Shown here piece after piece: positions 24,704 to 44,529 of a stretch of DNA of 64,000 nucleotides. Within the stretch, counting starts at the first letter, position 1. Every line of letters starts with the position of its first letter. The stretch comes from Nitrospirota bacterium (lineage in GTDB: Bacteria; Nitrospirota; UBA9217), in assembly GCA_035516965.1 (NCBI GenBank), contig DATIZR010000021.1, positions 1-64,000 on the forward strand, given 5' to 3'. Position numbers and translations under genes: made by a program. The notes under the pieces were generated by a model. It was not told the DNA's origin and did no database searches. It saw nothing but the letters and a program-made list of their open reading frames with translations.

Positions 24704-24754
24704 TTTTCATTCTCCTTTGTCGGTAGTTTCATGAAAGTCCCCTCTATGATAAAT

Positions 24755-25903: not shown

Positions 25904-26010
25904 ACCTTCTCCTTCCCGTGACCGAGTACGGGCGCTTCAGTGGCTATCATTACGATAAAGCAATGGAACAGACCATTTGTTGATCACTGAGGGTCTTATT
26001 GTCAAAGGCT

Positions 26011-27537: not shown

Positions 27538-27791
27538 TTTTTTTCACACTCCCCCGCGAACTTTTCAGCAAAATCATCAATAATGGCGGCATAGGTGGAT
27601 GGGATCACGAGCGCCCCCAAAATTGGCTTTTCATCTATCCGGTCCCGGTGCAGATTCTTAAAACACCAGTGTCATAGAGAGCTTGACGGAGCGCGGCTCC
27701 CGCCTTCAGTGCATAAAATCAGCGACCGCTGCCGAGTTGAAAACTCCAAAGGTCATCCGCTTTCAACACGCCTTTGCGTGGACACAGACCG
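27538..27791. other. 254-bp gap between the receptor and exbB
   Basis: No intact gene. On the minus strand a short frame (about 27655-27540, lacking a start codon) reads LGALVIPSTYAAIIDDFAEK and runs into the exbB start; it may be the tail of a lost small gene. The part near 27700-27790 on the minus strand (GACCTTTGGAGTTTTCAACT) weakly resembles the dispersed repeat at 420 and 2800. Confidence 0.35.
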
Positions 27792-29972
27792 CTAGATGTT
27801 TTTTGAGATCCCCACATAAATTGCGCGCCGGGGCAGATACTGGGGCGCAAACACCCCAATCCCGTCCCCGTCCCGGATTTCATACTTAAGATCCGTTACG
27901 TTGGTCACATCAAGCCTGCATTTAAGATCATTGCCGGGGCTCAGTTTAAAGATGTGAGTCATGCCCACGTTGAACGTTGTATAGCCCGGAAGTTCAGTTT
28001 CGTTGGCGAAGCCGCTGTAGAGTCCGCTGCCGTAAAGTGCATCGGCATACACCTTGGTACTGCCCCACTTATAGGACCCTCCGGCCGATGCAGTCCAATC
28101 CTGGTCGTGATCGAGATGGTACCAGTTGCTTTGCATATAAGCGACTTCCTCCGGACTGAACTGCCATTGCCCGGATGTCAGGCCTTTCGCCGTGGCCTGG
28201 CTCCGCGCGGCATTGCCCCAAAGAGCAAAACCGCCTTTTTCGTAGGAAGCGGTCACCTCGACGCCTCGGACGAGGGCTTTATCTCCGTTATAGGGCGAAA
28301 AGATCATTGCCGGACCGAACTGCCCCTCGTCGAGCACATTTTTCTTTATCTTGTAGTAGGCATCCACTCCGACGTGGAGATCGGGCGTGATGTCCTGATT
28401 GACGCCAATATCAAAGTAATGATAACGCTCACTTTTCACCGGGATCGCCGCGGTAACCTCCAAGGACGGGTCCACGGCGTTTGTCGTGCCGTCGAATTTC
28501 GCCACGTCGCCGGCCTGGATGAATTCCAGGGGAGGGGGCGTGAAATAGCGGCCGTAGCCCGCGTGCAGGGTCGTGGGCGATACCGGCTTGTAGACGAAAT
28601 TGACGCGCGGACTGAGTTGCGATTCAGTGATGTAGGCGTCCCATAAATCAGCCCTCAAACCGTAGTTGACCGTCAGTTCCTGAGTGATGCGCCATTCATC
28701 CTGCAGGTACGCACCATACAGCCCGGCCGTTTTCTCATAGTTATCGACAATCTGGAATGGGTCCCCGAAGCCGTTCACCGTGACGGGCAGCACCGTATTC
28801 GTGGTGTTTACCGCCGCGTGCTGCACACTTAACGAGAAACCGCCCCGCACGGTATGCCGGTCGTTGATGCGGTCACTGACGTCGCATTGCAGATTGTTGG
28901 AGATGAGCTGATGGTCGGTATCCGAAGCGATCCCGTTGAAGATCACGTCACCCACCGGGTCTGGCTTGAAGGAAACATCGCTAAAACGCATCGATTGGGT
29001 CAGTTGCAGGTCGATGTTCCCCAGGATCTTCTGGTATCCCAGGATTTCGTAGTATGCCTGCTCGTACTGGTTCTCATTCAGTTTGGAGGAATCGAATGTG
29101 GTAATCGGCCCATAGGGGAATTGCGGCTCCTGACCGGCTATCGTGGGGATCTCAAAAGTGCCGTATGCGCCGCTTAGTATCAATGTCAGCCGGCTTGTGT
29201 CGTCAATCAGATACGAAAAGTTGCCGAACCCCTTGTATTGATTCGTATCATCGTGTGTCGGCCGGTAAGTAGGAGCGGGATTGGCCATGCCGAGGCTGCT
29301 GTGCAGGTAGCTGACCATCCCGTACCCGGAGAACGGGCCGCTGCTGCCACCGTATTCGACTATCGGCATGAAAGTATTGTAATCGCCGCCGTATACCGAA
29401 ACAGTGCCGCCATGCAGGTTCCGGCCGCTCTTCGTCTGAATGTCGACGATCCCCGCGGTGCGGTTACCGTACTGGGCGGGCAGTATGCCGGTAATGAGCG
29501 ATACGGAGTCGAGGAATGTTGTGGAAAGTTCCTGGCTGAACCCGGAAAGCCCATCCGGAAGAAGCAGACCATTGATGCGATATTGCAGGTTGGCCTCCTC
29601 GCCCCGCACGTGAAGGCGCTTGTCGAGTTCGTCCTGCGCCACGCCGGGAAAGCGATAGAATGTCTGGTCGAAAGATGCGAATTCCCCCTGTGATTGGGAA
29701 TCGATCTTCTCGCTGTCAAGCGTATACGTGGTGGCCCCGAGACTGGGGGAAATCTGGGCCCGGGCGTTGTCCAGGGCCTTCTCCTGCACCGTCACCATGG
29801 GTAGCGTGACGATGCCGGCCGACGTATTCTGTCCGGTCAGGTCCCCGGCCGAAACTCTGACGCCCCACAGCAGGCATCCCATTCCCACCGACAGGCAGAC
29901 GAGCCGGCAGGCCCGGAGGCCGGTTCCGCATCGCAAGAACCAGGCGAGGACATGGCAGAAAAAGTCACTCAT
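27792..29972 (-). CDS. TonB-dependent outer-membrane receptor
   Basis: 726 aa. An N-terminal signal sequence (hydrophobic stretch around residues 23-40, ending SAG), a plug domain (about 70-190; FPGVAQDELDKRLHVRGEEA, DSVSLITGILPAQYGNRTAG) and a long beta-barrel with aromatic strand ends to the C-terminus (YVGISKNI). The barrel motifs YGRYFTPPP and YHYFDIGVNQ are typical. There is no N-terminal signalling domain. The ligand is unknown; the operon partners (ExbBD, TonB, radical SAM protein, HupE-like protein) do not name it, although metals or metallophores are one option. Confidence 0.92.
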   Translation of the reverse strand: MSDFFCHVLAWFLRCGTGLRACRLVCLSVGMGCLLWGVRVSAGDLTGQNTSAGIVTLPMVTVQEKALDNARAQISPSLGATTYTLDSEKIDSQSQGEFASFDQTFYRFPGVAQDELDKRLHVRGEEANLQYRINGLLLPDGLSGFSQELSTTFLDSVSLITGILPAQYGNRTAGIVDIQTKSGRNLHGGTVSVYGGDYNTFMPIVEYGGSSGPFSGYGMVSYLHSSLGMANPAPTYRPTHDDTNQYKGFGNFSYLIDDTSRLTLILSGAYGTFEIPTIAGQEPQFPYGPITTFDSSKLNENQYEQAYYEILGYQKILGNIDLQLTQSMRFSDVSFKPDPVGDVIFNGIASDTDHQLISNNLQCDVSDRINDRHTVRGGFSLSVQHAAVNTTNTVLPVTVNGFGDPFQIVDNYEKTAGLYGAYLQDEWRITQELTVNYGLRADLWDAYITESQLSPRVNFVYKPVSPTTLHAGYGRYFTPPPLEFIQAGDVAKFDGTTNAVDPSLEVTAAIPVKSERYHYFDIGVNQDITPDLHVGVDAYYKIKKNVLDEGQFGPAMIFSPYNGDKALVRGVEVTASYEKGGFALWGNAARSQATAKGLTSGQWQFSPEEVAYMQSNWYHLDHDQDWTASAGGSYKWGSTKVYADALYGSGLYSGFANETELPGYTTFNVGMTHIFKLSPGNDLKCRLDVTNVTDLKYEIRDGDGIGVFAPQYLPRRAIYVGISKNI

Positions 29973-29987
29973 CCTTGCTGCTCTTGC

Positions 29988-30185
29988 CTACGAAGCGGGG
30001 GTGGGTTCATGCGACTCTTCAGGCACCGCGCGTTCCTTGGCCTTCGCCGAACAGATAATCGCGGCCATCGTGTTGAAAAGGACCGTCATGGCCGCTCCAG
30101 CAGTGAAGAAGACCACCATATCCACGCCGATACTGCTTGAGTTCGGATTGTATCCGGTCTTGATCTTCAGGATTCGTCCTTTCAT
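29988..30185 (-). CDS. 65-aa small membrane peptide, candidate conserved partner of the receptor
   Basis: Starts at the ATG behind AGGAAGG. The N-terminus is MKGRILKIKTGYNPNSSSIG, then one hydrophobic helix (about 23-46: MVVFFTAGAAMTVLFNTMAA) and a charged tail (AKERAVPEESHEPTPAS). The NPNSSSIG stretch looks like a conserved motif, not random coding. It ends 15 bp before the receptor gene. Its size, position and the radical SAM/SPASM enzyme in the same run make a peptide substrate or small receptor-associated protein possible, but there is no direct evidence. Confidence 0.65.
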   Translation of the reverse strand: MKGRILKIKTGYNPNSSSIGVDMVVFFTAGAAMTVLFNTMAAIICSAKAKERAVPEESHEPTPAS

Positions 30186-30279
30186 TTTCCACGCCTTCCT
30201 TCTTTGATTCTCTCTCTGTTGCAGGCAGCTCGGCGGGTCATTTACCTCGTTCTCCGCTCATCATTCGTCCCTTGGTCCG

Positions 30280-31398
30280 TCACAGAAGCCCCAACTTGTA
30301 ATGGAACGTCTCGGCAAAAACGTCTATGATCTCAGGTCCATTCGGCTGGTATATAAAGAACAGGTAGAGGAACGCCGCAGTCATCAGCAGCGTGAGGACA
30401 GGGCTGAGCCAGCGCAGTGCCCGGGGCCGGGTCTGCCAGCACTCCCCCCTGGTCAAAAGCAGCAGCCAGAAAAGGACCGTCAGGTTGAGTCCTGCCAGCA
30501 TATAGACCACCGTATCAGGTATGACGATCGGATAGCCCCCGGTCTCCAGGGAATAGAAGGTCGGCATCCTGACCGCGTTCAGCAGCAGCCATAAAACAGG
30601 CCAGATCAGAAACATTCTGATCGATTTCCAGGTAAGCCGCTTCCAGGGCTTCATCAGCAGGACCGCGGCCCAGAGCATGACGATGACTGCCCACGCAACC
30701 CATGCCCAGGCCGTTGTCTCTTTCCAGTGGCGGCTGGCCGTTTCGTAGGCAAGCTGGTCGCTCGTGGATAGTTTTTTTTTGCCGTTCCCGGCAAGGGCCT
30801 GAAAAGCAAGATAACTTTGCCTGTCATTGTCCAGGCGGTCATAGGCAAATCCCAATTCACTCAGTACTTTGTCCTTTAAAATAAAGTCGGGGTGTTCCTG
30901 CAGCAACTCCTCGAACTTCTTCACCATGATTTCATCGCCCTGATCACCGGACCGAATGGATTGATAGGTCTTGAAAGCCTCCTCTTGGCTCCCCAGCTTT
31001 TCCAGAGAGACCAGTTTCTCCTTATAAAAAAAAACCTGACGGGGGTCGGCATATTTCTTCAGGAATTCCCGGTCCCACTTAATGGCCTTCTTTATATCCA
31101 CTAGGTTGTTTTCATACAGGGTACCCAGCATCTGTACGGCATAGCGGCGAGCCTCGCTTTCAGGATGCTTCCCGGCGATCTCCAGGTTGAAGGCTGCGGC
31201 CTCGGCATAGCGGCCGTTGATATACGCGTGCTGGGCCTTCTGTTTCAGCTCGTTCACTGCAGGGCTGTCCTGAGCCGCAAATCCGGCGAGTGGCAGTAGG
31301 AACAGGCTCACGAGGAGCGTCAGAATAGAGAATGGAATAAGCTTCATGCATCTCATGATGACCGTCTTCAGCGGCTGCATATCCGCTCTTGTTGTCAT
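30280..31398 (-). CDS. Secreted-N/TPR membrane protein heading the transport cluster
   Basis: 372 aa; the ATG at 31398 has AGAGG 8 nt upstream, though internal ATGs at 31356 or 31347 would give a more classical signal peptide (LIPFSILTLLVSLFLLPLAGFA). Residues about 45-225 are helical and TPR-like (AQHAYINGRYAEAAAFNLEI, ESEARRYAVQMLGTLY, SEDQLAYETASRH region). Four C-terminal helices follow (about 230-250, 258-275, 290-312, 335-355). It is the first gene of the leftward run to 24086. A scaffold or sensing role is possible. Confidence 0.65.
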   Translation of the reverse strand: MTTRADMQPLKTVIMRCMKLIPFSILTLLVSLFLLPLAGFAAQDSPAVNELKQKAQHAYINGRYAEAAAFNLEIAGKHPESEARRYAVQMLGTLYENNLVDIKKAIKWDREFLKKYADPRQVFFYKEKLVSLEKLGSQEEAFKTYQSIRSGDQGDEIMVKKFEELLQEHPDFILKDKVLSELGFAYDRLDNDRQSYLAFQALAGNGKKKLSTSDQLAYETASRHWKETTAWAWVAWAVIVMLWAAVLLMKPWKRLTWKSIRMFLIWPVLWLLLNAVRMPTFYSLETGGYPIVIPDTVVYMLAGLNLTVLFWLLLLTRGECWQTRPRALRWLSPVLTLLMTAAFLYLFFIYQPNGPEIIDVFAETFHYKLGLL

Positions 31399-31568: not shown

Positions 31569-34500
31569 TCAGAATCGCTGGTAAACAACGGGCGCAAAGT
31601 TGATTCTCACGTTCGACGGGTTGCTGAACTGAAGCGGGATGCTGATCGACTGCCCGGGGGCTAGCGACTGGCCGGTCGTGCCGATGTACGGAAAACCGTT
31701 GTACATGCCGGCTCCGTTTGCCAGTATGACACCGGAGGTCAGGTTGTTCAGCACCACGTTCAGCGGGACGGACACGGTCGATGAACTGATATTGGTGACG
31801 GTCATGGTGCCCGTGGACACCCGTGCCGCGCGGCTGTAGCTGAACCCTGTGGTGGTCACGCTGAACTGCGAAGATACATCGACGGGCGAGTTGATGGTCA
31901 TGGTACTGGATGCGCTTCCATGATAGTCGACATCGTTTATGAAGGCTGCGACCGAGTACGTACCCGGAGCGACAGGAGCGGTCGTTGAACCGTTGTAGGT
32001 TACCGTGATGGGAAGCCCTGCCGGGTCGGTCGCGACCGTGACGCTCCTGGGCGCGCCATTATAGCTAAAGTCCATGCTCCCGAAGAGAACAGTGGCCTCC
32101 GCTTTGGCAACGGTCAGGGTGCCGCTGGCCAGTACCGTATTCCCGGTCTGAGCTGCCTTTGCCTCTACCGCATACGTCCCGGCCGAGATCGGCCCGGCGG
32201 AGTCTCCGTTGTAGGTCACGCTTACCGGAATGCCGTCCGGAATGGTGAAGACGGTGACCTGCTTCGGCGAAGCATCGAATTTCTGATACACCCCTTCGAG
32301 CGAGACGATCGGGTAATAGGCGGGAGTGTCGGTATAGTGCGTTGCTGCCGGGGCCGCGGCCGGAGCGGGTTCGACATTGTTGTTGCTGTCCGTGGCTAAG
32401 CTGTAGAACTCGTAGTAGCCCGAGCCTTGCGGGAAGCCGAAGGCCGCCGTGTACGGAGCTGCCGTGGCAGTGGAGACCGGTGTCCACGCGCCCCAGGATG
32501 CGTTGTCCGTTGAATAGCGGTAGAAGAACTGCACCTGCGTGACCGACGTTCCGCCCGATTGCATCGTCACCTGGAGCACCGGAGCGTTGCTCCCATACTC
32601 CTTTGAGTCGAACCCGTAGCTCGGCGCCGTTGCGTCAGCCGCCCCCTCGGTGACCGGTTTGACGACGAGCGAGACCAGTTTGTTGGCGGCCCATTTCCCC
32701 TGGACGAAGGGGGTGACGTTCCAGTTGTACCAAAGGTTGGCGGTGGCTGCCGCAAGGGTCTGCGTATCGAGCGCCGCAGCGCCTAAAGCCGGCTGGGTGT
32801 TCCAGGTGATGCCGGTCTCCGTCCAGGTGTCATCGCTGCCGCCCCGCACCTCGGCCGGCAGTGCCGCTCCCGTGGCCTTCCAGTCCCAGAGCTGAAGGGA
32901 AGCGCCGGATATCGTTGCTCCGCTCGGGATGCCGGAGAGGTCGAATTTCAGCCAGGCCCGCTCGTTCCCATAGGAATTCATGCTGCTGCTCTGTATGTAG
33001 AGGTTGGTTGTGTTGTAGTTCGTTGTCGGTTTGCCGCTGGCCACCTGTGCGTCGGCGACCGGTGCGAGGTAGTACGTTCCATTGGTGACGGAGGCGGTGG
33101 CGCTCAGGGTAAGAGACGATCCGGTCGTCCCGGCCGGTATCGGATCGAGGCGGGACGAAACAGCGGAGACCGACGGCAGCTGAGCTGTGGTGGTCGCGGC
33201 GCTGTCGCAGCGGAAGCGCAGCCCGTAGCTCTCCATGGTGGGCACGCCCGAGATGAGGAGCGTGTCGCCCACGTTCCCCGGGAGGGTCTTTGCGGCATAG
33301 CCGGTCACGTCCATGATCGAAAGAGTCTGCCCGTTCTGATCGGTCACCGTGCCCGGTCCCGCCTTTTTCGCCAGGAACTGCACATAGTGGTTCTTGTAAG
33401 AGTCATTCCAGAACGCGCCGATGGACGACAGGAAGGCAGGCTTAGCGAGGCTTTCGTCGTGGCCTGCGATCCTGAACTCGACGCCGTCGGCATAGATCCC
33501 CTCCTGGTCCACGAATTCGGGATTGCCGCCGTAGAAGCTCCCCTTTCCCCAGGTCTCGATGATGTCACCCGGCCTGAGGGCGCCGGTCTTGAACCCGAGG
33601 TAGCTGCGGTAAAGCTCCTGCTCGGCCAGGCGGTTGGCGGCGTTTATGGTGCCGTCTTCATTGACGAGGTCGGCAGGAACCTGATTGCTTCCGCGGCGCG
33701 CCAGGGTCTCCGGGGTGGCGCTGAGGAGGCGGATGAATGCGTACTCATAAACCGGTTTGGTATCGTTGTCGTTCATCATCGTGACCACGGCGCGGTATCC
33801 GCCGGAGAACTCGGTGTTCAGATGGTAGCGCGGACCGCCGACACGGTAGGGGTTGCCGGCGGTGAACTGCCGCATGTAGTCCACAATGCCGTCGCGGCAG
33901 AGGACGCTTGAGGAAAGCGGGGCCGTGTCCGACCAGGTCCAGCCGGTTGGTGGATGAGCGTACATGTAGTTATTGATGGCCACCGTATAGGTGTGGTTCA
34001 GGTCGATAGGCTGGCCGTTGAACTTGACCGAGGTCGGGATGCCGTCAAAAGCAGTCACGTCCAAAGCGCTTGAGAACCCGGCATCCATGGTGGTTGCTTT
34101 CAGGAAATTGATGATCTCCTGGCCGGTCATGTTGACCCGGGTGAACGTATCGTCGTTCCAGGGGAACGTTTCGTAGATCTGCATATAGGTCACCGGGCCG
34201 GCAGGAATATCGGCGCGCACGCCGCCCCCCGCCTCCATGGCGAGGTCACACTGGCCGAATAGCTGCTCAGCCTTCCATTGCATGGCGTCGCAGATCCACT
34301 GGCCGGCGGTGTTGTTGCCGCTCCAGGGATACTCGTCGGCCGACCACCATTTCATGGTGTTATCCAGCATCAGGTTGTCCGCAGTGTAGCCGATCACTTC
34401 GTCGACCGGGTGACCGGGATGCGCAGTATTGTATTGCGCGGTCAGGCCTTCGATCAGGGTCTGCGTATCAGGATCGGGGGTAAGATCGGCGTCTCGAATC

Positions 34501-36791
34501 ACATGCTGGGCCGATCCGGCGTAGCTGCCCGTGTCGGTCAATCGCAGCTCGCCGATGTACTTCATATAGCTGGCCGACTCCGTGAAGATCGTCTTGTAGT
34601 TGAGCATTGACGGCTGCCACACGGTGTCGGCCCAGCTGTGCCAGTGCCCGGTCACGACCGCTTCCGGAAGCTTTGCCGCGCCGTCATCGACGAGCAGCGG
34701 CGCTGCCGGATCGACGAGCGCGCTGTGGCCTATGTGAGCGGCGAGAATCACAATATTACACCCCTGATTATTGCGCAGTTCGTTCACGTAGTCGGCCAGA
34801 TGGATCTTGGTGGCGTCGGTGCTGCTCCAATCGCAGGCGTCTACCTCAAGCGTGTTGGACAGCGAGGCCCCCACCTCGGATTCGGAGGTGGTATACCCGA
34901 GAATGCCGACCTTCGTGCCGCCGATGGTTACGATGTTGTACGGGGGGAAGAAGGGCTGGTGCGTCATCACGTCCCTGACGTTCACGGAAATCACCGGCAC
35001 CCCCGAATTTTGGAGAGCGACCATGTTACTAATGTAAGACGCGTCTCGGACGTCGTGATTGCCGACGACCACCGCATCCATGCCGCGACCGCGCTGTTTC
35101 TGAAGTTTTGCCGAGAGCATGGTATAGAACTGCGTCATGGCGCCGTTGCCGTTCATGTCGCCGATCGGGTTCCCCTCGGAGATATCCCCCGCGTCGATCA
35201 CGAGAGAATTGGGCTGCTCAGCCGTGAGCTGCAGCATCTCGGAGGCCAGGTACGCTGCGCCGCCTACATCTTCGAATGCAGGTGGATTGGTACCGTGCTC
35301 GGTCACGATCCATTTGTGAGGCGTGACGCGCGCGTGAGTATCGTTCACATGGAAGATGGTGAAACTTCCGGTAAAGTTGGCCGTGACGGTCTGGCTGACG
35401 GCGATGCCGGTTACAGTGAGAGGATTTGCCGCGCTCGTCACGAACCCGTTGGTCCCGGTCCAGTTGGTGAAGAAGTAGCTGCTGTTTGCCTTCGCGGTTA
35501 CGGGAGACGCCGATGCGCCGTAATCGACGGTCTGCGTCGCGGACCCGGTGAGCGTGCCGTGGCCGTCCGTCGTAAAGGTTACGGTATAGGTCTGGATCGC
35601 GGCCGAACAGCTCGCTGCGTTCCCGCCGTTGCTCCCTGTGCATGTCCAGCTCCAGGGATGGCCGCTTCCGACGACAGCCGAAGGAGAGCCGATTGAGCAG
35701 AGGTTAGCCGGGGCCGTAGCCGCCAGAGTCTGGCCGTTGTCCGCGCCGCAGGCGCCGTTGATTGGCGTGGCGGTGAAGTTTGCAGTGATGGTCTGGCTGG
35801 TTGTGACATTGCTTACCGTCAGCGGGTTTGACGTTGAAGTGACGAAGCCGTTGGTCCCGGTCCAGTTCAGGAAGGAATACCCGCCGTTGCCCGATGCCGT
35901 GACCGGTACGGTGGAACCGCCGTAGTCAATGGTCTGCGAAGTCGTCCCACTTACGGTGCCATGGCCGTCGGTGCCGAAGGTGAGGGTGTAGGTCTGGATC
36001 GTGGCCAAACAAGCAGCAGTGCTGCCGCCGTACAGCCCGCTGCAGTTCCAGGTCCAGGGGTGGCCGTTGCCGCTGATTGCCGAGGCATTTCCTGCGGAGC
36101 AGAGGTTGACCGGTGCTGTTGCCGCCAGGCTCTGGTTGTTGTCCGTGCCGCAGACGCCGTTGACCGGCGCCACACAATAGGTATACGCCGATGCACTATT
36201 GCGAGGATTCGGCGCTCCTGCTGTGAAGTCGGCATTGTTGTTGTCCGTATCGCTGCAGCCGTTGCCCGCCCGCAGCACTGCTGTCGTGTTGCTGGGAGCC
36301 GGCGTCGGGCCGCTCCCCTCAAAATTGTTGGCTGTTGTACCAAAACCGACATAGTCCCGGACCGCAGCATTTGTGGCGCAGTTGCTGCCGCAGGAAAGAG
36401 CGGTCGTGCTGGTCACCAGCGCTACCTTGCCGGCAGTGGCGCTCATATTTATGATGCCTGTCGCGTCCGGAGCCGGCAGATTCACTGTCCCGCCGGTTCC
36501 TGCCGCTTCCTGAACCAAGTAATGCTGCCCCGGCTGAATAATGCCGCTGAGGTTGGTCACCTGCCAGCTCGTCCCCGTTGCCGACGCGTACTGGACAGAC
36601 CAGCCGTTGAGGCTGACCGGTAGCGAACCGAGATTGAACAGCTCGATGAAGTCATTTTTGTAAGTTGCCCCGCTGTTCCCGCCCCCGCCGTAAACCTGGC
36701 TGATGACGATGTCGGGCGAGGCGGAAAAACCGGCCACCGGGACGATAAAAGCGAAGAACAGCGTGACGATGAAGCCAAGTATCCTTTTCAT
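31569..36791 (-). CDS. Giant secreted 5'-nucleotidase with LTD, InlB-type, DNRLRE and MBG-type domains
   Basis: 1740 aa, start behind AGGAGG. Order: signal peptide (1-24); lamin-tail domain (about 25-150: DIVISQVYGGGGN, DFIELFN); two tandem repeats of a cysteine-containing plus InlB-type module (214-341, 348-474); 5'-nucleotidase catalytic domain from about 478 with the binuclear metal motifs HVNDTHA, DAGDISEGN, VVGNHDV, AAHIGHS and TGHWHSW; 5'-nucleotidase C-terminal domain (about 800-1000); a mixed region; a DNRLRE/CBM96-like domain (about 1240-1410); MBG-like repeats (about 1510-1640); and a C-terminal beta domain (1640-1740) shared with two other phosphatases here. Role: extracellular release of phosphate from nucleotides. 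No VPLPA tail. Confidence 0.9.
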   Translation of the reverse strand: MKRILGFIVTLFFAFIVPVAGFSASPDIVISQVYGGGGNSGATYKNDFIELFNLGSLPVSLNGWSVQYASATGTSWQVTNLSGIIQPGQHYLVQEAAGTGGTVNLPAPDATGIINMSATAGKVALVTSTTALSCGSNCATNAAVRDYVGFGTTANNFEGSGPTPAPSNTTAVLRAGNGCSDTDNNNADFTAGAPNPRNSASAYTYCVAPVNGVCGTDNNQSLAATAPVNLCSAGNASAISGNGHPWTWNCSGLYGGSTAACLATIQTYTLTFGTDGHGTVSGTTSQTIDYGGSTVPVTASGNGGYSFLNWTGTNGFVTSTSNPLTVSNVTTSQTITANFTATPINGACGADNGQTLAATAPANLCSIGSPSAVVGSGHPWSWTCTGSNGGNAASCSAAIQTYTVTFTTDGHGTLTGSATQTVDYGASASPVTAKANSSYFFTNWTGTNGFVTSAANPLTVTGIAVSQTVTANFTGSFTIFHVNDTHARVTPHKWIVTEHGTNPPAFEDVGGAAYLASEMLQLTAEQPNSLVIDAGDISEGNPIGDMNGNGAMTQFYTMLSAKLQKQRGRGMDAVVVGNHDVRDASYISNMVALQNSGVPVISVNVRDVMTHQPFFPPYNIVTIGGTKVGILGYTTSESEVGASLSNTLEVDACDWSSTDATKIHLADYVNELRNNQGCNIVILAAHIGHSALVDPAAPLLVDDGAAKLPEAVVTGHWHSWADTVWQPSMLNYKTIFTESASYMKYIGELRLTDTGSYAGSAQHVIRDADLTPDPDTQTLIEGLTAQYNTAHPGHPVDEVIGYTADNLMLDNTMKWWSADEYPWSGNNTAGQWICDAMQWKAEQLFGQCDLAMEAGGGVRADIPAGPVTYMQIYETFPWNDDTFTRVNMTGQEIINFLKATTMDAGFSSALDVTAFDGIPTSVKFNGQPIDLNHTYTVAINNYMYAHPPTGWTWSDTAPLSSSVLCRDGIVDYMRQFTAGNPYRVGGPRYHLNTEFSGGYRAVVTMMNDNDTKPVYEYAFIRLLSATPETLARRGSNQVPADLVNEDGTINAANRLAEQELYRSYLGFKTGALRPGDIIETWGKGSFYGGNPEFVDQEGIYADGVEFRIAGHDESLAKPAFLSSIGAFWNDSYKNHYVQFLAKKAGPGTVTDQNGQTLSIMDVTGYAAKTLPGNVGDTLLISGVPTMESYGLRFRCDSAATTTAQLPSVSAVSSRLDPIPAGTTGSSLTLSATASVTNGTYYLAPVADAQVASGKPTTNYNTTNLYIQSSSMNSYGNERAWLKFDLSGIPSGATISGASLQLWDWKATGAALPAEVRGGSDDTWTETGITWNTQPALGAAALDTQTLAAATANLWYNWNVTPFVQGKWAANKLVSLVVKPVTEGAADATAPSYGFDSKEYGSNAPVLQVTMQSGGTSVTQVQFFYRYSTDNASWGAWTPVSTATAAPYTAAFGFPQGSGYYEFYSLATDSNNNVEPAPAAAPAATHYTDTPAYYPIVSLEGVYQKFDASPKQVTVFTIPDGIPVSVTYNGDSAGPISAGTYAVEAKAAQTGNTVLASGTLTVAKAEATVLFGSMDFSYNGAPRSVTVATDPAGLPITVTYNGSTTAPVAPGTYSVAAFINDVDYHGSASSTMTINSPVDVSSQFSVTTTGFSYSRAARVSTGTMTVTNISSSTVSVPLNVVLNNLTSGVILANGAGMYNGFPYIGTTGQSLAPGQSISIPLQFSNPSNVRINFAPVVYQRF
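35370..36152 (-). repeat. Tandem duplication of a 128-residue module within the 5'-nucleotidase gene
   Basis: Residues 214-341 and 348-474 align throughout (CGTDNNQSLAATAPVNLCS versus CGADNGQTLAATAPANLCS; GHPWTWNC versus GHPWSWTC; NWTGTNGFVTS in both). Each unit joins a four-Cys 'GHPW' segment to a divergent InlB-type segment. The DNA remains similar enough to suggest relatively recent duplication. Confidence 0.85.
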
Positions 36792-36944
36792 AATGCCTCC
36801 TGAAAATGGATGTATCCGTGAATTCTCATTAAGAGCAGAGGATCAGGGCGGGGGTAAAACGCGTTGATCGCAGAAGAACGCCGCTTCACCCGCCCCCTGG
36901 CCCCCTCTCACCGGTGAGGATTAATGGGACAGGGAAAACCTTAA

Positions 36945-36968
36945 AATACGGGGGGCCCGAAGGCCCCC
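36945..36968 (-). terminator. Hairpin after the broken VPLPA-CTERM gene
   Basis: GGGGGCC-CGAA-GGCCCCC stem-loop (36951-36968) 28 bp past the stop at 36996. On the minus strand it is followed by GTATTTT, a weak T-run. Likely intrinsic terminator or attenuator between the phosphatase operon and the 5'-nucleotidase gene. Confidence 0.55.
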
Positions 36969-36995
36969 AAAACTTCATCGTTCCTTATTCGCCAA

Positions 36996-37357
36996 TCATG
37001 CGGCCATCCTTCTGCGGATGCCCGCAAGGCCCATCAGCCCGGAGCCGAGCAGCCAGGCGACTGCCGGGATCGGGGTCGGGGTAACATTCGCCTGAGACGC
37101 CATGATATTCGTGGTTGCTGCCCCATTATCGCTCAAATCAACTGTGAAGAGCGTTCCATCCGCGGTCATCAGAGGGTTAATGCCCGAGTCGTCAGCGAAC
37201 AACCCGAGGGAAAAGTACTCGTGCCTGTGGACCCGCTGTTAGGCGTGTTCGCCAGAGCCAAGCTGAAGCTCAGGCTATTGCCGAAATGGATCGCTTGGTA
37301 GAACGCAACGGTCCCTACTCCTGCATTTCTGCCCGGCATGCGGAAGGAGAAGGTCAA
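36996..37357 (-). pseudogene. Frameshifted, 5'-truncated VPLPA-CTERM protein
   Basis: Two overlapping minus-strand frames together give the C-terminal half of a protein homologous to the intact one at 39488: VAFYQAIHFGNSLSFSLALA in one frame (to about 37215), then LFADDSGINPLMTADGTLFT and the tail TPIPAVAWLLGSGLMGLAG-IRRRMAA in the next. Restoring one T in the T-run near 37212-37215 would join them. The N-terminal half, including any signal peptide, is missing; the homologous part begins directly at the stop of the histidine phosphatase (37354). A sequencing error in the T-run cannot be excluded for the frameshift, but not for the missing 5' part. Confidence 0.75.
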
Positions 37358-39315
37358 TTTGAAACATGATTGTAGCAGGCCGTCAGCCTACCGTAGTCGT
37401 AGTAGTGGCTGCCGGGGGCATACCGGGCTTGATCGCAGTCAGCTTTGAAGTCGGCTTCCTTTTCGTTGTAAAGCATCTTGACCAACAGCGTTCCGGCCCC
37501 GTTGCTGTAAACATCCCACTGCACATTGGCAGCGTACGGCGAGACGATTGCTCCGCGCCAGGGATTGGTGTTGTAGCTGTAGTTGCTGGCGTTGGGGACC
37601 TGCACGAAAACGTTCTTCAGCCCCAGAATGGAAGCGAGGGGCATGATCTCTTCTCCGTGAGTGAAGCGGAGCTTGGCGCCGTGGGAGAAATCTCCCTTGG
37701 CGACGGCGTCCACCTCATTGAACAAGTCATTTATGAGGAGCTGCGCCATCCGGAAGGTGGAAGATCCGTCCTCAGCGATCCCGGGGCCCTTCTGATAGAA
37801 GCTCTGTACGTCGTCCAGATACGACAGGACGCTCGCCTGAGCGGCAGGGATGTACTTCGAAAAATCCATATTGTTGAGTTCGTTCTGCATCGCCGGTGCG
37901 GTGGCATAGAAAGAGTACAGCTCGTTTGCGGCGTCCGAGAGGCTCTGCACCGTTGTGCTGCCATCGCCTGAAACCGTCGTCGAGTAGCTGCCGTCGCTCG
38001 TGGTGAATATGTAGCTGCCGGAATTGGTGAAAGTGTAGGTTCCATTGTCGATCTTGTCCACGAAATCCTTTGTGAACAGCATTTCCAGCACGGCGCGTGC
38101 GTTGGCAGCTGCATCCGGATCAGTCAGAATGCTATTGACCTTGGCGACCATGTTCGCATTCTTGAGGTATGCCTGATAAGTCAGGCTGTCCTGGTAGGTC
38201 TGGTAATAAGGGTCACTGGCGCTGTTCACCAGGTCGGTTTTCGCAGCGAGCTTGTGAAAATAGAGCAGGAAACGGTTCACCCCTGCCGCCTGGGCCACCG
38301 GTTTGTTCGACGGATAGGCGGTAAGGGGAGCTGACTTCAAGATCAGAGGTCCCAGGGATGGATTGTTGGTCAAGAGGGACAGAGCGAAGAAACCTGCGCT
38401 GTCCGCTGCACGGTTCACTCCGGAATTGACCATGACGATCTGGCGATTGCTTGCGGGGAGCTGGGCGAAATAGGAGGGCAGCCTCTGCAGGAGCCGTGCT
38501 GCGATCTGCTGCTCTTCCATAATGCCGGTCTGGCTCAGATTGCCGTAGCCGGGAGCGGTAATCCCTGCAACGCCGACGTCTAAAAGCGCATTTGCCTGCA
38601 TCATGGTCATAACATCCGGACCGAGCTGGGCTCCGAGGGGAGTGAGGGCGCCATCTGCGGCTGCCTTAAGATACATGTTGTAAACAGTCCCGTCGAAACT
38701 GGATTGGCCGCGCGACCCGTGCCGCACCACCGCTTCGGTGAAGACAGGAGTGAAACCGGCCGGCTCTGCCTCGTAACTTGCCGCGTTTTGCTGCGGCTGG
38801 TAAGGAGTGGCGGTTGTCAGATAGGCGTTTGGCCCCACCTGGTAGATCAACGCAGAGAAGCCGATAAGCGCATTGGATGGGTTGCTGAACTGAAGGGGAA
38901 AGCTGATCGAACCACCAGACAAGAGTGACAGGTTTTGATAGACATAGGGGAATCCGTTGTATTGTCCGCTGGCATTGGACAGAGTTACGCCGGAGGAGAG
39001 ATTGTTCAGTGATACGGCTATCGGCCCGGTGATCGGATTCGTACCGGGGTTTGTGACGGTCATCGTGCCGGTGTACAGTTTGGATGCCCGGCTGTAAATG
39101 AACCCTGTCGTTGAAACGAGGACCTGTGGTGTAATGTCGGTTAGCTGGGACGCGGTGATGGCGGTTCCCGCAGGATTCAGATTCTGTGCATGGCCGTAAG
39201 GTTCGAAAAAGGCAACCTGAAAGGCAGTGCAGATTGAAAAGATTATTGCTACGAAAGCAACCCTGCTGACGGAGGGGTTGTCAGGCAACTTGCAGGTTTT
39301 TGTCAATGTATGCAT
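37354..39315 (-). CDS. Secreted histidine acid phosphatase (MINPP/phytase-like, branch 2)
   Basis: 653 aa, start behind CAGGAGAATAA. Signal peptide about residues 18-43. Residues 65-160 are the beta-rich domain shared with the 5'-nucleotidase C-terminus and the purple-acid-phosphatase-like protein. The catalytic domain follows: phosphate-binding RHGSR at 198-202, the second Arg region NSGVNRAADSAGFF (about 305-318) and the proton donor motif HGEEIMPLASILGL (about 583). The C-terminal Cys pair region (DCDQARY, YDYGRLTACY) matches MINPP-type ends, so the gene is complete. Expected to remove phosphate from inositol phosphates or other organic phosphates outside the cell. Confidence 0.85.
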   Translation of the reverse strand: MHTLTKTCKLPDNPSVSRVAFVAIIFSICTAFQVAFFEPYGHAQNLNPAGTAITASQLTDITPQVLVSTTGFIYSRASKLYTGTMTVTNPGTNPITGPIAVSLNNLSSGVTLSNASGQYNGFPYVYQNLSLLSGGSISFPLQFSNPSNALIGFSALIYQVGPNAYLTTATPYQPQQNAASYEAEPAGFTPVFTEAVVRHGSRGQSSFDGTVYNMYLKAAADGALTPLGAQLGPDVMTMMQANALLDVGVAGITAPGYGNLSQTGIMEEQQIAARLLQRLPSYFAQLPASNRQIVMVNSGVNRAADSAGFFALSLLTNNPSLGPLILKSAPLTAYPSNKPVAQAAGVNRFLLYFHKLAAKTDLVNSASDPYYQTYQDSLTYQAYLKNANMVAKVNSILTDPDAAANARAVLEMLFTKDFVDKIDNGTYTFTNSGSYIFTTSDGSYSTTVSGDGSTTVQSLSDAANELYSFYATAPAMQNELNNMDFSKYIPAAQASVLSYLDDVQSFYQKGPGIAEDGSSTFRMAQLLINDLFNEVDAVAKGDFSHGAKLRFTHGEEIMPLASILGLKNVFVQVPNASNYSYNTNPWRGAIVSPYAANVQWDVYSNGAGTLLVKMLYNEKEADFKADCDQARYAPGSHYYDYGRLTACYNHVSN

Positions 39316-39376
39316 TTATTCTCCTGAACGGGGTATGTTCGGAATGCCGGTTTTGTCTATTCACTTTTTTAAAAGG

Positions 39377-39415
39377 CCCCCTCTCCGGACAAGATGTACT
39401 CTGCCGGAGAGAGGG
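39377..39415 (-). terminator. Intercistronic hairpin, possible partial terminator
   Basis: CTCTCCGG ... CCGGAGAG stem (39381-39411) flanked by T-runs on both strands; it lies between the VPLPA-CTERM gene stop (39488) and the phosphatase start (39315). It could reduce readthrough between the two. Confidence 0.5.
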
Positions 39416-39487
39416 AAGATGTTTTTTCTCCTATGCCTTCACCTTTCTACGAAGGCCCCCAAAAGTTCACCGTTCCTTCTTCATCAA

Positions 39488-40075
39488 TTACGCGGCCATC
39501 CTTCTGCGGATGCCCGCAAGGCCCATCAGCCCGGAGCCAAGCAGCCAGGCGGCTGCCGGGATCGGGGTCGCAGCCACGGCAACCTGGCTGCTCAGGTTGT
39601 TCACAACAGCACCGTTTGCATTCAGGTCAACGGTGGTTGCGAAACCATTCGTCGAATCGTTCGTGAGCAGCGGCGTGAAGCCATCTGCTCCGTAAAAGGA
39701 CAGCGCGAACGAGTTATGAGCGCTTCCGGACAGATTGAGAGCAAACTGGACACTGCTGCCGAAGGTGATCTGCTGATAGTAGTCGTTCCATCCGGTGGTG
39801 TTGCTGATCGTTACCGCCCCGGGGAGCGCGCCTGTGACAGCGCCCGTTACTTGCTGGGAACCGGCGGCAAGCGTTGCATCGGAAGTGAAGTTTGAAATGA
39901 CGGCGCTGGCCACGCCCGGATTGAGCCCCGGGTTGAACTGGAGCTCCAGATACCCGGTTTGACCGGAAACGGACGATGTGTTCACGTCGAAATTGTAGGA
40001 ATAATCCGCGAAGGCCGACGTGGCTGCAAACATGATCACCGCAAAGACGAGAAGTTTGACAATATGACGTTTCAT
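39488..40075 (-). CDS. VPLPA-CTERM (PEP-CTERM-type) exported protein
   Basis: 195 aa from the ATG at 40075 behind TAGGAG. Signal peptide residues 1-23 (ending AFA), a beta-rich body without Cys, and the sorting tail: TPIPAAAW motif, hydrophobic helix LLGSGLMGLAG and basic end IRRRMAA. This is the VPLPA variant recognised by XrtD-type exosortases, and such an enzyme is encoded at 53744. The mature body should be cleaved and anchored or released at the surface. The ribosome site overlaps the stop of the upstream purple-acid-phosphatase-like gene, so the two are coupled. Confidence 0.92.
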   Translation of the reverse strand: MKRHIVKLLVFAVIMFAATSAFADYSYNFDVNTSSVSGQTGYLELQFNPGLNPGVASAVISNFTSDATLAAGSQQVTGAVTGALPGAVTISNTTGWNDYYQQITFGSSVQFALNLSGSAHNSFALSFYGADGFTPLLTNDSTNGFATTVDLNANGAVVNNLSSQVAVAATPIPAAAWLLGSGLMGLAGIRRRMAA

Positions 40076-40085
40076 TTTATTTCTC

Positions 40086-41798
40086 CTATTCCTGTAACAC
40101 GACAGGGTTAAATGTGATTGTGGCGTTAGCCGGGTTGCTGAACTGCAGCGGCACGGTGATCGAAGCTCCGGAAGCAAGACCGTTGGCCGAAACCTGTATC
40201 ATCGGTTCGCCGTTGTTCGAGCCCGTTGCATTGACCAGTGTGACATTCGCGATAAGGCCGGGATCACTGCTTCCTTTTCCCGTGGCCGGTTTATTGGCGA
40301 TTTTCGAAGTAAGTTTCGGGGTGGTCGTGCTGTACTGGTTATCTGCGTTGCCGATCCCCTGGAGGTTAAGGATGCCGTCCAGGACAACGTGGACGTTGCC
40401 GGTGAGGTCGGGGCCGTTATTGGTGATGGTCAGGTTGCCTGCATAAAGCTTGGTGGCACGGCTGTAAAGGAAACCGGTGCTTGTCGCGCTGACCTGCGGC
40501 GAGACGTTGGTGAAGTGGTTCAGGACGATCGTCTCGATCGGTGAAAGGGTCAACGTCGCTGCCGACTGAATAGCGGTCGTGCTCACGTTATTGACCTGGT
40601 AGGAAGTCATCGTGAGGGTTTTCCCCTCCACGTCGAAGGTCATGAATTCGAAAGCCGGCCAGGCCGTGATAACGTGCGGATAGCTCCCCGCATTTGTCAT
40701 ATCGGGCTGATACACAGGCGCGCCGCCGCCGCCGCTAGTGATGTGCGGCACGTTCAGGGCAATCTGGTCACCGTTTGCCTGGGCGAGGGTATAGGCCCCG
40801 GTGCGGGCATAGTTGTGGCTGTGTCCGCAGTAGATCAGGTCCACACCATACTGGGTGACGAGGGGTTCGAGCACCCTCACGTTGCTGTTGTCGCCATCGC
40901 TGCCCGCGGAATAGGCTGGTTCGTGGTAGATCATGATCTTCCACGGCTTTGTGGTTGAGGCGAGGTCATTGACGACCCAGTTGTACTGGGCGGAGCCAGC
41001 AGCAAGGTTCGAGTAGTTGTCAACAACGGTGAAGTGGACCGGGCCGTAATCAAATGACCAGTACAGGTTATTGTACGCCTGGACCGTAGCCGGGTCGAAA
41101 ACAGGGGTTGCGTTCTGATAAGGGAAGGGGAAATACTTGGGGAAGTAGGTGCTCTTCCCGTTGGGGTAGCTTCCGCTGTTGTCGTGGTTGCCTTTGCACC
41201 CATTGATGGGCGTATTCGCCGTGAACGCGACGACGTCAATCTTGGTCGGGTCGAACCACTGGGACGTCCAGTAGCTTTCTCCGTCGGTGCTCACCCAGTC
41301 CCCATTGTGAATAACCAAGCGCTGATAGTCTTCGTTGCCCGGCTGTGAATAAAAGCTCTTCATCGCCTGCATCAAGTTATCCAGGGCAAAGGGTTGGCTC
41401 CTTGAGTCCCCCATGCCGAGGAACCGTATCGCCGTTACGCTGTTGTCGGGCGCGGTGATGAATGATCCGGCTCCGTAGAGGCCGTTGGTCTGGTCAGCCA
41501 CCTGATAGTAGTATTTCGTATTCGGCGTCAGACCGGCGATCGTATAGGCGTGCTGATTGGCGCTTCCGTACTCGGGTACCGTTACTGTCCCCATGCTGTA
41601 GGTCGTGTCGGGGCCCCAGCTGAGCACGTTCGTTGCCTCGCTGGCGTTGTCCTGCCAGAGGATCTGCATCTGAGTATTCTGCCCCGGGTAGATCATATAG
41701 GGGTGTTTCAGAATGCCGGCGAAGGCCGCCGTGCTGAACACGGTAATGGCCAGCACGAAGACCAGGCCGGACAATGCCTTTTTCGTCATGGTATTCAT
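40086..41798 (-). CDS. Secreted purple-acid-phosphatase-like metallophosphoesterase
   Basis: 570 aa; the ATG at 41798 follows AAGGAGAAGAG and is preferred to 41849. Signal peptide residues 1-28. N-terminal fibronectin-III-like domain as in purple acid phosphatases (about 30-125), then the metallophosphatase domain with GMGDSR, HNGDWV, GCKGNHD, MIYHEPAYS and GHSHNYARTG. The last 140 residues form the beta domain shared with the two other phosphatases, here with an approximately 40-residue insertion (around ANKPATGKGSSDP). Some PAP tyrosine/histidine ligands differ, so the exact metal pair is uncertain. First gene of a unit with the VPLPA-CTERM gene. Confidence 0.88.
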   Translation of the reverse strand: MNTMTKKALSGLVFVLAITVFSTAAFAGILKHPYMIYPGQNTQMQILWQDNASEATNVLSWGPDTTYSMGTVTVPEYGSANQHAYTIAGLTPNTKYYYQVADQTNGLYGAGSFITAPDNSVTAIRFLGMGDSRSQPFALDNLMQAMKSFYSQPGNEDYQRLVIHNGDWVSTDGESYWTSQWFDPTKIDVVAFTANTPINGCKGNHDNSGSYPNGKSTYFPKYFPFPYQNATPVFDPATVQAYNNLYWSFDYGPVHFTVVDNYSNLAAGSAQYNWVVNDLASTTKPWKIMIYHEPAYSAGSDGDNSNVRVLEPLVTQYGVDLIYCGHSHNYARTGAYTLAQANGDQIALNVPHITSGGGGAPVYQPDMTNAGSYPHVITAWPAFEFMTFDVEGKTLTMTSYQVNNVSTTAIQSAATLTLSPIETIVLNHFTNVSPQVSATSTGFLYSRATKLYAGNLTITNNGPDLTGNVHVVLDGILNLQGIGNADNQYSTTTPKLTSKIANKPATGKGSSDPGLIANVTLVNATGSNNGEPMIQVSANGLASGASITVPLQFSNPANATITFNPVVLQE

Positions 41799-41940
41799 CT
41801 CTTCTCCTTTTTGTTTAAAAGTAATGCTGCCGGTTGTGACTCTTCTCACCCTTCTAAATTTCTTAATTAACTATTATTTCACCTCCTTTTCGCTTGCTGT
41901 CCAGCAGTTAAAGACAACTACCGCTGCTGAATGCATTGTT

Positions 41941-42483
41941 CTATTGATCCAGGTCTACCTGTTTTGCGTCCGTCAACAATGCGTTATCCAGGTTTGTCTC
42001 GCTCATGTCCGCCCCGTTCAGGTTCGCTCCGTCCAGGTTCGCCCAACTCAGGTTCGCCCCTTTCAGGTTTGCCTTGCTCAGGTTTGTCCCTTTCAGGTCT
42101 GCCTTGCTCAGGTCCACTCCACTAAGGTCCTGCCCCTCCAGATTCACTCCGCTCAGGTTCGTCCCGCTCAGGTTCGCCCCGCTCAGGTCCGTCCCGCTCA
42201 GGTTCGCCCCGCTCAGGTCCGTCCCATTCAGGTTTGCCCCGTCCACGTCCGCCCCTTTCAGGTTCGCCCCTTTCAGGTTCGCTTTGCTCAGGTCCGCCCC
42301 GTTCAGGTCCCGCCCCTCCAGGTTAATCCCGTTCAGGTCCGCCCCGCTCAGGTCGCACTGGGGACATTGATTGGTTGCCCTCAATCTATCCAGATCAGCC
42401 TGCTCGAAACCGTACACGACACCGCCCATTAGAAAAACGCAAAGGGTGGTCATCCCCAGCAGTGCTGCAGTCCTTCTCTTCAT
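41941..42483 (-). CDS. Exported pentapeptide-repeat protein
   Basis: 180 aa, start behind GAGGAG. Signal peptide about 1-24 (VVYG), a short segment with CPQC, then roughly 25 consecutive A(D/N)LXX pentapeptides (about 43-170; ADLNG, ANLKG, TDLSG, ANLSG) that should fold into a right-handed quadrilateral beta-helix. The central position is almost always Leu. Pentapeptide proteins in the cytoplasm mimic DNA or act in resistance; an exported one more likely serves as a structural rod or binding surface. It is the first gene after the c-di-GMP riboswitch leader (42634-42750), and the phosphatase genes follow 140 bp downstream. Confidence 0.92.
   Translation of the reverse strand: MKRRTAALLGMTTLCVFLMGGVVYGFEQADLDRLRATNQCPQCDLSGADLNGINLEGRDLNGADLSKANLKGANLKGADVDGANLNGTDLSGANLSGTDLSGANLSGTNLSGVNLEGQDLSGVDLSKADLKGTNLSKANLKGANLSWANLDGANLNGADMSETNLDNALLTDAKQVDLDQ
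42005..42350 (-). repeat. 15-bp tandem DNA repeats of the pentapeptide coding region
   Basis: On the plus strand the unit CAGGTTCGCCCCGCT recurs with period 15 and slight variation about 23 times. The sequence is so regular that blocks near 42155-42215 are almost identical. Prone to slippage. Confidence 0.9.
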
Positions 42484-42633: not shown

Positions 42634-42677
42634 AAAAAAAGCCGGGTGCTCTCTCCTGAGAGAAAGGGCAACCCGGC
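42634..42677 (-). terminator. Riboswitch expression-platform terminator
   Basis: Minus strand: GCCGGGTTGCCC...GAGAGCACCCGGC followed by TTTTTTT. Its 5' arm (42664-42677) is the 3' strand of the riboswitch aptamer, so the two structures exclude each other. Ligand binding would be expected to prevent termination. Confidence 0.8.
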
Positions 42678-42752
42678 TATCCTCATGGGACCCGTGGCTT
42701 TCCGTCCCCATCTTGCGATGGGTTTGGCTGTAACGGCCAAGCAGTTTGCTGT
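42664..42752 (-). promoter_or_regulatory. Cyclic-di-GMP-I (GEMM) riboswitch
   Basis: Reading leftward: AGCCAAACC, stem CCCATC-GCAA-GATGGG closed by a GNRA tetraloop, then GGACGGAAAGCC, ACGGGTCCC, and GGATAGCCGGGTTGCC. This is the order of the GEMM-I consensus (GCAAACC, GNRA loop stem, GGACGCAAAGCC, tetraloop-receptor arm, TAGCCGGGTTGCC). It leads into the terminator at 42634 and then the pentapeptide-repeat gene. One consensus position (C of ACGCAAAG) is G here. Predicted to turn transcription on when c-di-GMP is high. Confidence 0.85.
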
Positions 42753-43137: not shown

Positions 43138-44529
43138 TTAGCGTGCCGGCGACGACAGCGGAGCCGATGCCAGGTCGAGGGCATTAGTCAGGTCGTTTGC
43201 CGCTGCGTCGCGCGAGCCCAAGGGCATCAGATTCCATCGGCGTTCGATAAGCTTCAGAATAGATGTCGTGTCGTACTCTGTGTGATCGACAAACCCTTTC
43301 TTGGCAAAGGGAGATATGATGATTGCAGGCACTCTCGCGCCAGGTCCCCAACGGTCACTCTTCGGAGGGGCCACATGGTCCCACCGGCCGCCGTTCTCGT
43401 CATAGGTGATGATGATCACGCTGTCGTTCCAATAAGGGCTTTCCTGCACGGCCTTGACGAGTTCCGCCACGTGCTGCTGGCCGAAAAGGAGCGCGGCATA
43501 CCCGGGATGTTCGTTGTAGGAGCCGTTCGGCTTGATGAAGGTCACCGAGGCCAATGCGCCTTTTTTCAGGTCCGTGATAAATTCCTTCTCGTCCTTGAGA
43601 TGCGTTGCCTTGGCCGGTGTGTTGTCGGCGAAATTTGCGAAATAGGCAAAAGGCTGGTGATGGAACTGAAAATCTCCGGCCGGTTTTCCGGCGAGGGCGT
43701 CGTTCCATCCGCCGGAATACCATGTCCAGGAAACGCTCTTCGCCGATAGCAGGTCTCCGATTGTCGGCTGGGTCTGAAGGGGGACAAGGTCCTTTGCGCT
43801 GTCCGGGTGAGGCTGGTTTACGGAGTAGGCGGTATTGACCACGAAGCCGTCAGGCGTTACGGCGCCGTCTTTTTCAAGGACCCCCTTCAGATCGAGTTTT
43901 ACTCTCATCGAGGTCGGCGCGTCAGGCCAGACCGGTGTGCAGGCGCAGACAAGCCAAAAATGGTTTAAAAACGAGCCGCCGAAGGCCGCCTGAAAGAAAT
44001 TGTCGGCGATCGTGTATTGCTTAGCCAGCCTTCCCTCGGGCAGGTCGCTGGCATCAACATAGCTCATGACGAGTCCGGGATTGTCGCTCCAGGCCGCGAA
44101 CTTGTCCATTTTGCCTCCATCGATCTGGAGCTGATTCTGGTAGAAGCGATGCACGAGGTCCCCTGTTTTTTCGTTCCAGGGAACATATTGGGCCAGATCG
44201 TACGGCTTTGCCGGCATCTGCTCTGGAAAACGAAGGTCATCCACGGGAGGCTTCAGACTGGTGTCCAACGGCCGCTTGAGAGTTTTCAGCGGCTTGCCCT
44301 CCTTGTCCACCTGATTCACCGCATCTCCCGCATTCGCGAGACCGTTCGCGCCGGGAAACTTGCCGTAAAGGCCGTCAAAGCTCCAGTTCTCCTGGTAGAT
44401 GACGATGACATGATTGATTTTCGACTGGAGCGCATCCGTTTTTGGGTCCGCGGCTTGCACGAACCGTGTGCAAAAAATCAGCGCCGCAGACAATGCAATA
44501 ACCCTTGCGTAGCGATAGAAATTGGGCAT
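43138..44529 (-). CDS. Secreted acid phosphatase / phospholipase C-type phosphoesterase (AcpA-like)
   Basis: 463 aa, start behind AAGGAGGACGAG. Signal peptide 1-26 (VQA). Phosphoesterase family PF04185 signatures: NHVIVIYQENWSFDGLYG near residue 40 (the E-N pair that binds metal/nucleophile region), FGGSFLNHFWLVCACTP (about 190), and the C-terminal metal site TYDENGGRWDHVAPP followed by GPGARVPAIIISPFAKKG. Francisella AcpA and PlcC belong here; substrates range from phosphomonoesters to phospholipids. Fourth phosphohydrolase of the cluster, encoded upstream of the riboswitch in a separate transcription unit. Confidence 0.9.
   Translation of the reverse strand: MPNFYRYARVIALSAALIFCTRFVQAADPKTDALQSKINHVIVIYQENWSFDGLYGKFPGANGLANAGDAVNQVDKEGKPLKTLKRPLDTSLKPPVDDLRFPEQMPAKPYDLAQYVPWNEKTGDLVHRFYQNQLQIDGGKMDKFAAWSDNPGLVMSYVDASDLPEGRLAKQYTIADNFFQAAFGGSFLNHFWLVCACTPVWPDAPTSMRVKLDLKGVLEKDGAVTPDGFVVNTAYSVNQPHPDSAKDLVPLQTQPTIGDLLSAKSVSWTWYSGGWNDALAGKPAGDFQFHHQPFAYFANFADNTPAKATHLKDEKEFITDLKKGALASVTFIKPNGSYNEHPGYAALLFGQQHVAELVKAVQESPYWNDSVIIITYDENGGRWDHVAPPKSDRWGPGARVPAIIISPFAKKGFVDHTEYDTTSILKLIERRWNLMPLGSRDAAANDLTNALDLASAPLSSPAR

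Follow-up and report, generated by a model that had tools for sequence, protein, structure and literature searches.

What does a beta domain of about 105 residues do when it is shared by three phosphatases encoded side by side? The question is raised by the minus strand of contig DATIZR010000021.1 from a Nitrospirota bacterium (GCA_035516965.1), of which positions 1 to 64,000 were analysed as a whole and are called the window here. The three open reading frames (31569-36791, 37354-39315 and 40086-41798) were present as stated in a first-pass annotation of the sequence, which had regarded the domain as a portable and perhaps undescribed module that might anchor the enzymes to the exopolysaccharide (EPS) or the cell surface. 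This interpretation as a whole was partly supported. The evidence points to the pairing of the domain with a particular co-encoded PEP-CTERM protein, absent from that annotation, over direct binding to EPS.

Domain copies and host enzymes

The three-way alignment of the window copies gave pairwise identities of 46-54%; 37 columns were invariant, among them those of TGF.YSRA and PLQFSNP. Searched with a profile of these copies, the whole 3.8 Mb genome yielded the same three and no others, with E values of 3e-54 to 6e-49, which excludes a chance resemblance and confirms the shared domain. As had been described, it is N-terminal in one enzyme and C-terminal in two:

31569-36791, minus strand: 5'-nucleotidase, 1740 aa, with a signal peptide, lamin-tail domain, InlB-type repeats, metallophosphoesterase and 5_nucleotid_C domains, CBM96, MBG repeats and the domain copy at the C-terminus
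31572-31883, minus strand: C-terminal domain copy of the 5'-nucleotidase (profile E = 3e-54)
37354-39315, minus strand: histidine phosphatase branch 2 (PF00328), 653 aa, with an RHGxR motif and the domain at residues 58-162
38836-39141, minus strand: N-terminal domain copy of the histidine phosphatase (profile E = 6e-53)
40086-41798, minus strand: purple-acid-phosphatase-like (PAP-like) enzyme with Pur_ac_phosph_N, PF00149 and the domain at the C-terminus
40089-40511, minus strand: C-terminal domain copy of the PAP-like enzyme, with a loop insertion (profile E = 6e-49)

The Pfam assignments of the three enzymes were PF00149 with 5_nucleotid_C, PF00328, and Pur_ac_phosph_N with PF00149, respectively. 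The enzymes had been called otherwise unrelated, which was partly correct only: the 5'-nucleotidase and the PAP-like enzyme are both calcineurin-type metallophosphoesterases (PF00149). In whole-protein scans, the shared stretch was not covered by any Pfam or NCBIfam family. By inspection, the signal peptides of the window proteins are N-terminal and ordinary, and the three phosphatases have no exosortase sorting tail of their own. In the alignment, one loop of the PAP-like copy carries an insertion of about 40 residues. An insertion of 38-50 residues in one loop was common to the PAP-type copies (window 40089-40511, L073 and L076) and occurred in none of the others. Beside the cluster, a PF04185 phosphoesterase of the phospholipase C/acid phosphatase type (43138-44529, minus strand) lacks the domain and is a fourth phosphorus-releasing enzyme.

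The neighbouring PEP-CTERM gene

Two genes of the NF038129 type, one of them broken, lie among the phosphatase genes:

39488-40075, minus strand: NF038129-family PEP-CTERM protein, 195 aa, with a signal peptide, a beta body and a VPLPA-type tail (TPIPAAAWLLGSGLMGLAGIRRR), flanked by the genes of the PAP-like enzyme and the histidine phosphatase
36996-37320, minus strand: remnant of another NF038129-type PEP-CTERM gene, frameshifted and truncated at its 5' end (E 6e-6 and 1.5e-22), between the histidine phosphatase and 5'-nucleotidase genes

The intact protein matched NF038129 with E = 2e-34 and 119 bits (cut-off 65), and its tail matched TIGR03370 (VPLPA-CTERM) with 27 bits (cut-off 25.35). 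A C-terminal helix was seen in its structure model, and Foldseek found nothing reliable for the NF038129 model. Its ATG lies at 40075, 10 bp past the stop of the PAP-like gene, and this TAG stop runs into the GGAG of the partner gene. The remnant suggests a tandem duplication of an enzyme/PEP-CTERM unit. With both profiles over cut-off and an exosortase/EpsI-type gene on the same contig, the partner is a member of the PEP-CTERM/exosortase (EpsH) sorting system. The phosphatases are different from the members of this system, since they carry the new domain in place of a sorting tail and are encoded in one cluster with the tailed protein.

Pairing across genomes

The sample comprised 296 genomes of the window's phylum, 141 Geobacterales-type genomes (the order of the genome that holds locus L044) and 72,556 plasmid records, with Pseudomonadota and Acidobacteriota genomes outside it; several carriers were metagenome bins. 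At every core locus, the domain gene touched a short NF038129 PEP-CTERM gene or sat in a cluster with one. In independent scans of the phylum, NF038129 exceeded its cut-off in just two genomes, the same two that had the domain, and the genes were adjacent in both. Among the Geobacterales-type genomes, seven had the domain (E<1e-15), seven had NF038129 and six had both, adjacent in 6/6 (Fisher 5e-9). The genome with the domain and no NF038129 (G372) had a different VPLPA PEP-CTERM gene adjoining the domain, and in the one with NF038129 and no domain (G305) the NF038129 gene adjoined a 5'-nucleotidase. Moreover, a tblastn search of the plasmid records with the NF038129 protein found one record, a Methylomonas plasmid, with both genes side by side. 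In the control, none of 28 loci encoding other PEP-CTERM proteins had the domain within 1.5 kb. Since the carrier genomes hold 1-49 PEP-CTERM genes each, a PEP-CTERM neighbour is expected by chance for about 1-2% of genes at most.

The position of the partner followed the position of the domain. The PEP-CTERM gene lay upstream of an N-terminal domain and downstream of a C-terminal one for 22 of the 27 terminal copies, a count in which several loci are related and thus not fully independent, and which includes the L045 remnant as well as the Methylomonas plasmid and L083, whose partners match NF038129 without a typical PEP-CTERM tail. In the window, L044, L074 and L075, the gap was 10-12 bp, and the stop codon ran into or abutted the Shine-Dalgarno sequence of the PEP-CTERM gene. 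Most PEP-CTERM genes have been described as single-gene operons after long intergenic regions (Haft et al. 2006, PMC1569441), so such coupling to an upstream gene is unusual.

Further, the distances between domains correlated with those between partners in Mantel tests (r of 0.84 for 11 pairs, 0.73 for 9 non-redundant pairs and 0.69 for 6 core pairs; p of 2e-4, 4e-4 and 0.011, respectively), and the enzyme parts of these loci were non-homologous. The correlation was taken as supporting evidence only, because co-inheritance alone would also yield it. At L083 (163-930, minus strand), the partner has an NF038129 body (E 1e-11) and still adjoins the domain gene, and its tail is a cysteine-rich myxobacterial-type TIGR02232/DUF4215 repeat, not PEP-CTERM. 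It is thus the NF038129 body, not the tail, that stays with the domain. In the literature, with most subscription journals outside the coverage, no description of this two-gene pairing was found.

Two further loci were observed. L045 (7095-7480, plus strand), in a Nitrospiraceae bin, holds a broken domain and a stop, directly followed by a broken PEP-CTERM tail, in otherwise unrelated surroundings. L079 (7851-14694, minus strand), syntenic with part of L044, has an NF038129 gene beside a 5'-nucleotidase without the domain and several other VPLPA PEP-CTERM genes.

Fold and family identity of the domain

Structure prediction, one of the checks proposed in the first-pass annotation, was performed with AlphaFold2 on a 16-row alignment of the window and related sequences (one plasmid-record row was left out). 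The predicted fold was an all-beta sandwich of eight strands with a mean per-residue confidence (pLDDT) of 96 and a predicted template-modelling score (pTM) of 0.85. The closest solved folds were CBM2 cellulose-binding and chitinase carbohydrate-binding domains (E about 1e-3, TM 0.55-0.65), followed by macroglobulin receptor-binding domains. Like CBM2, the domain has about 100 residues and is appended to secreted hydrolases, and its predicted beta-sandwich may be similar. It was different from CBM2 in its composition, with 0-1 tryptophans per domain in 16 members and no cysteine in core members; the CBM2 binding face is missing, since tryptophan is so scarce. A match to PF00553 (CBM2) was obtained for only one of 14 members, weakly and under cut-off (E 0.012). 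Membership of CBM2 by sequence was ruled out by this value and the missing surface tryptophans for polysaccharide binding; the domain may resemble CBM2 in its predicted fold and is not a CBM2 member by sequence.

Searched in isolation, the domain copies reached the cut-off of no Pfam or NCBIfam family, and a PDB sequence search with the domain gave nothing significant, in agreement with the earlier suggestion of an undescribed family. The profile search proposed at that stage concerned a known Ig/CARDB-type domain, and such an assignment, including DUF11, was rejected with no match over cut-off in either database. NCBIfam choice-of-anchor and Pfam Ig-like, DUF11 and CARDB domains are likewise extracellular beta domains on varied proteins, but the new domain matches none of them over cut-off and its host proteins lack a sorting tail of their own. 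One member matched Cohesin below cut-off (E 0.016). A C-terminal secretion domain of the T9SS type was rejected, because such domains are always at the extreme C-terminus, yet 11 copies here are N-terminal, including that of the window histidine phosphatase. A common ancestry of the domain and the NF038129 body was unsupported in a profile comparison (probability 0.6%), and an E 0.04 match of one domain copy to NF038129 was accordingly treated as chance.

Distribution of the domain

A contig scan with the three near-identical window rows found no relatives, and a profile including the Nitrospira copy did. Across three phyla, the domain was carried by no fewer than eight types of protein that are not homologous to one another, which bears out its portable nature. 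Within the phylum, Nitrospira sp. UBA5698 (G192, L042) was the only other carrier among the 296 genomes, and its domain copy forms the C-terminal end of a lamin-tail/NucH-type extracellular nuclease; a second Nitrospira (L043) was a further carrier. The domain was absent from the only genome of the same genus and from the other genomes of the same family searched. In the Geobacteraceae bin with L044, it was found on an alkaline phosphatase and on a 1520-aa LamG/PKD protein. Other Geobacterales-type carriers were G321/L073 (orthologous PAP and 5'-nucleotidase), G413/L076 (PAP), L074 and L075 (double metallophosphoesterases), L077 (LamG protein) and L078 (a metallophosphoesterase with an N-terminal domain). 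The Methylomonas plasmid (L010) has it on an Lcl/adhesin-type protein. Plasmid searches with the domain found only this record and a weak Acaryochloris match, plus Calothrix when a distant member was the query. More distant members of the family were carried by one lipase-like protein (L082) and by giant PKD-type proteins (L060-L064, L085). The carriers of core members were mostly phosphate- or nucleotide-releasing enzymes; nuclease, LamG, Lcl-type and lipase-like proteins were carriers too.

An island comprising 22604-31398 and 31569-41849 of the window was common to the Geobacterales-type genomes G321 and G413. It includes a HupE-like protein, a radical SAM protein, a TonB receptor (77% identical), the 5'-nucleotidase (66%, with its ortholog in G321) and the PAP (59%). 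Because the island is shared at roughly 48-77% identity, the sequences suggest that it moved between phyla.

Exosortase, EPS locus and riboswitches

Two features outside the phosphatase cluster bear on surface location and regulation:

42663-42737, minus strand: cyclic di-GMP (c-di-GMP)-I-GGC riboswitch (RF03167), upstream of a pentapeptide-repeat gene (41941-42483) and the PAP-like and PEP-CTERM genes
53744-55339, minus strand: exosortase (EpsH) fused to DUF3485 (EpsI type), PF09721 E = 4e-66 at 54.5 kb, the sole exosortase in the genome

The exosortase gene lies in an EPS locus at 45-63 kb, 14 kb from the domain genes, and an exosortase was present in 12 of 15 domain-carrier genomes. Riboswitches of the c-di-GMP-I type were found in six clusters (the window, L044, L077, L073, L076 and L079; counted within these loci), with the aptamer 137 bp before the domain-bearing alkaline phosphatase in L044 and about 260 bp before the LamG protein in L077. 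Some c-di-GMP-I-type aptamers in Geobacter are reported to respond to cyclic GMP-AMP (cGAMP) (PMC8835794). Scans for terminators and promoters did no better than chance, and their results were not used. The PEP-CTERM neighbour, the exosortase/EPS locus and the riboswitch make the earlier link to the surface or EPS plausible; direct EPS binding is not what the evidence indicates.

Proposed docking and alternative explanations

We consider it an even chance that the domain docks secreted enzymes onto the co-encoded, exosortase-processed surface or matrix protein. Secreted enzymes that are not themselves anchored in membrane or wall would bear the domain at one end, and the neighbouring gene would supply a small exported beta-rich protein with a PEP-CTERM/VPLPA tail. 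Processing of the tail by exosortase would place this protein at the surface of the cell or within the EPS, where its body would bind the domain of the enzyme. Docking would keep a mostly phosphate-releasing enzyme near the cell, and the benefit might be phosphorus capture in the biofilm. An analogy may be drawn with cohesin-dockerin: in both, unrelated secreted enzymes have a single small module in common, the proposed binding target of which is an anchored protein encoded with them. The present arrangement differs in that neither dockerin nor cohesin membership was found here and the partner is a short PEP-CTERM protein. For PEP-CTERM proteins, PepA of Aquincola keeps polymer attached to cells (PMC9850573), and ZepA is a precedent in nutrient capture (PMC10957091).

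Several observations weigh against docking. No exosortase match was found in the carriers G418, G456 and G583, some of which are incomplete bins. The orientation rule was broken by two 5'-nucleotidases with the partner on the opposite side and by the 1520-aa L044 protein with the partner one gene away. Both L080 copies had no PEP-CTERM neighbour, nor had the copies located internally in giant proteins of cyanobacteria (L011, L087; Acaryochloris, Calothrix). In addition, no fusion protein with both domain and partner was found, and the partner bodies of distant subfamilies were not all recognisable as NF038129.

The domain might instead be a CBM2-like module for the organism's own EPS, with the PEP-CTERM protein as a second, merely co-regulated matrix protein. 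The CBM2 and chitinase domains as top structural matches, the weak CBM_2 match of one member and the nearby EPS/exosortase locus agree with this, but a domain with 0-1 tryptophans has no aromatic platform of the CBM2 kind, and the one match is below the Pfam cut-off. Direct EPS binding also leaves unexplained why a PEP-CTERM gene abuts the domain end and why the pairing is specific to NF038129, and we regard it as unlikely. A similarly low probability was given to a cassette of domain and PEP-CTERM gene moved together by recombination or transfer, whose inherited adjacency would say little on function. The orthologous islands of the window and the Geobacterales-type genomes and the remnants in the window and L045 are consistent with such a unit, of which the position rule is the expected trace. 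However, the pairing holds at 30-40% identity across phyla, for N- and C-terminal domains and with partners of different families; moreover, the start sites are coupled, and neutral linkage should decay. More improbable still is a role of the PEP-CTERM protein as an export helper or chaperone, not a lasting anchor, with the domain as export recognition signal. Tight pairing, coupled translation and a domain at either terminus, as in a targeting module, would suit it. Against it, the window proteins have ordinary signal peptides, and PEP-CTERM proteins are themselves exported and retained (PMC9850573, PMC1569441).

Beyond the docking of these enzymes, it is conceivable, and was held more tentatively, that Gram-negative bacteria have a general display system made of two parts. 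In such a system, each subfamily of a docking-domain superfamily would be matched to its own PEP-CTERM (or otherwise tailed) co-adaptor encoded beside the domain end, and exosortase-anchored proteins would be the receptors for enzymes without a sorting tail.

Significance

The system was proposed in 2006, and the role of most PEP-CTERM proteins has been an open question ever since. With a partner domain encoded beside them, on enzymes whose activity is known, a testable role can be put forward, namely that PEP-CTERM proteins may hold enzymes in the biofilm matrix. If true, the general display system would assign a function to many orphan PEP-CTERM proteins, and the domain and its receptor would serve as a pair for enzyme display on Gram-negative cells. 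The finding also indicates a domain family that had not been described and, tied to riboswitches of the c-di-GMP type, a group of putatively matrix-bound enzymes for phosphorus scavenging.

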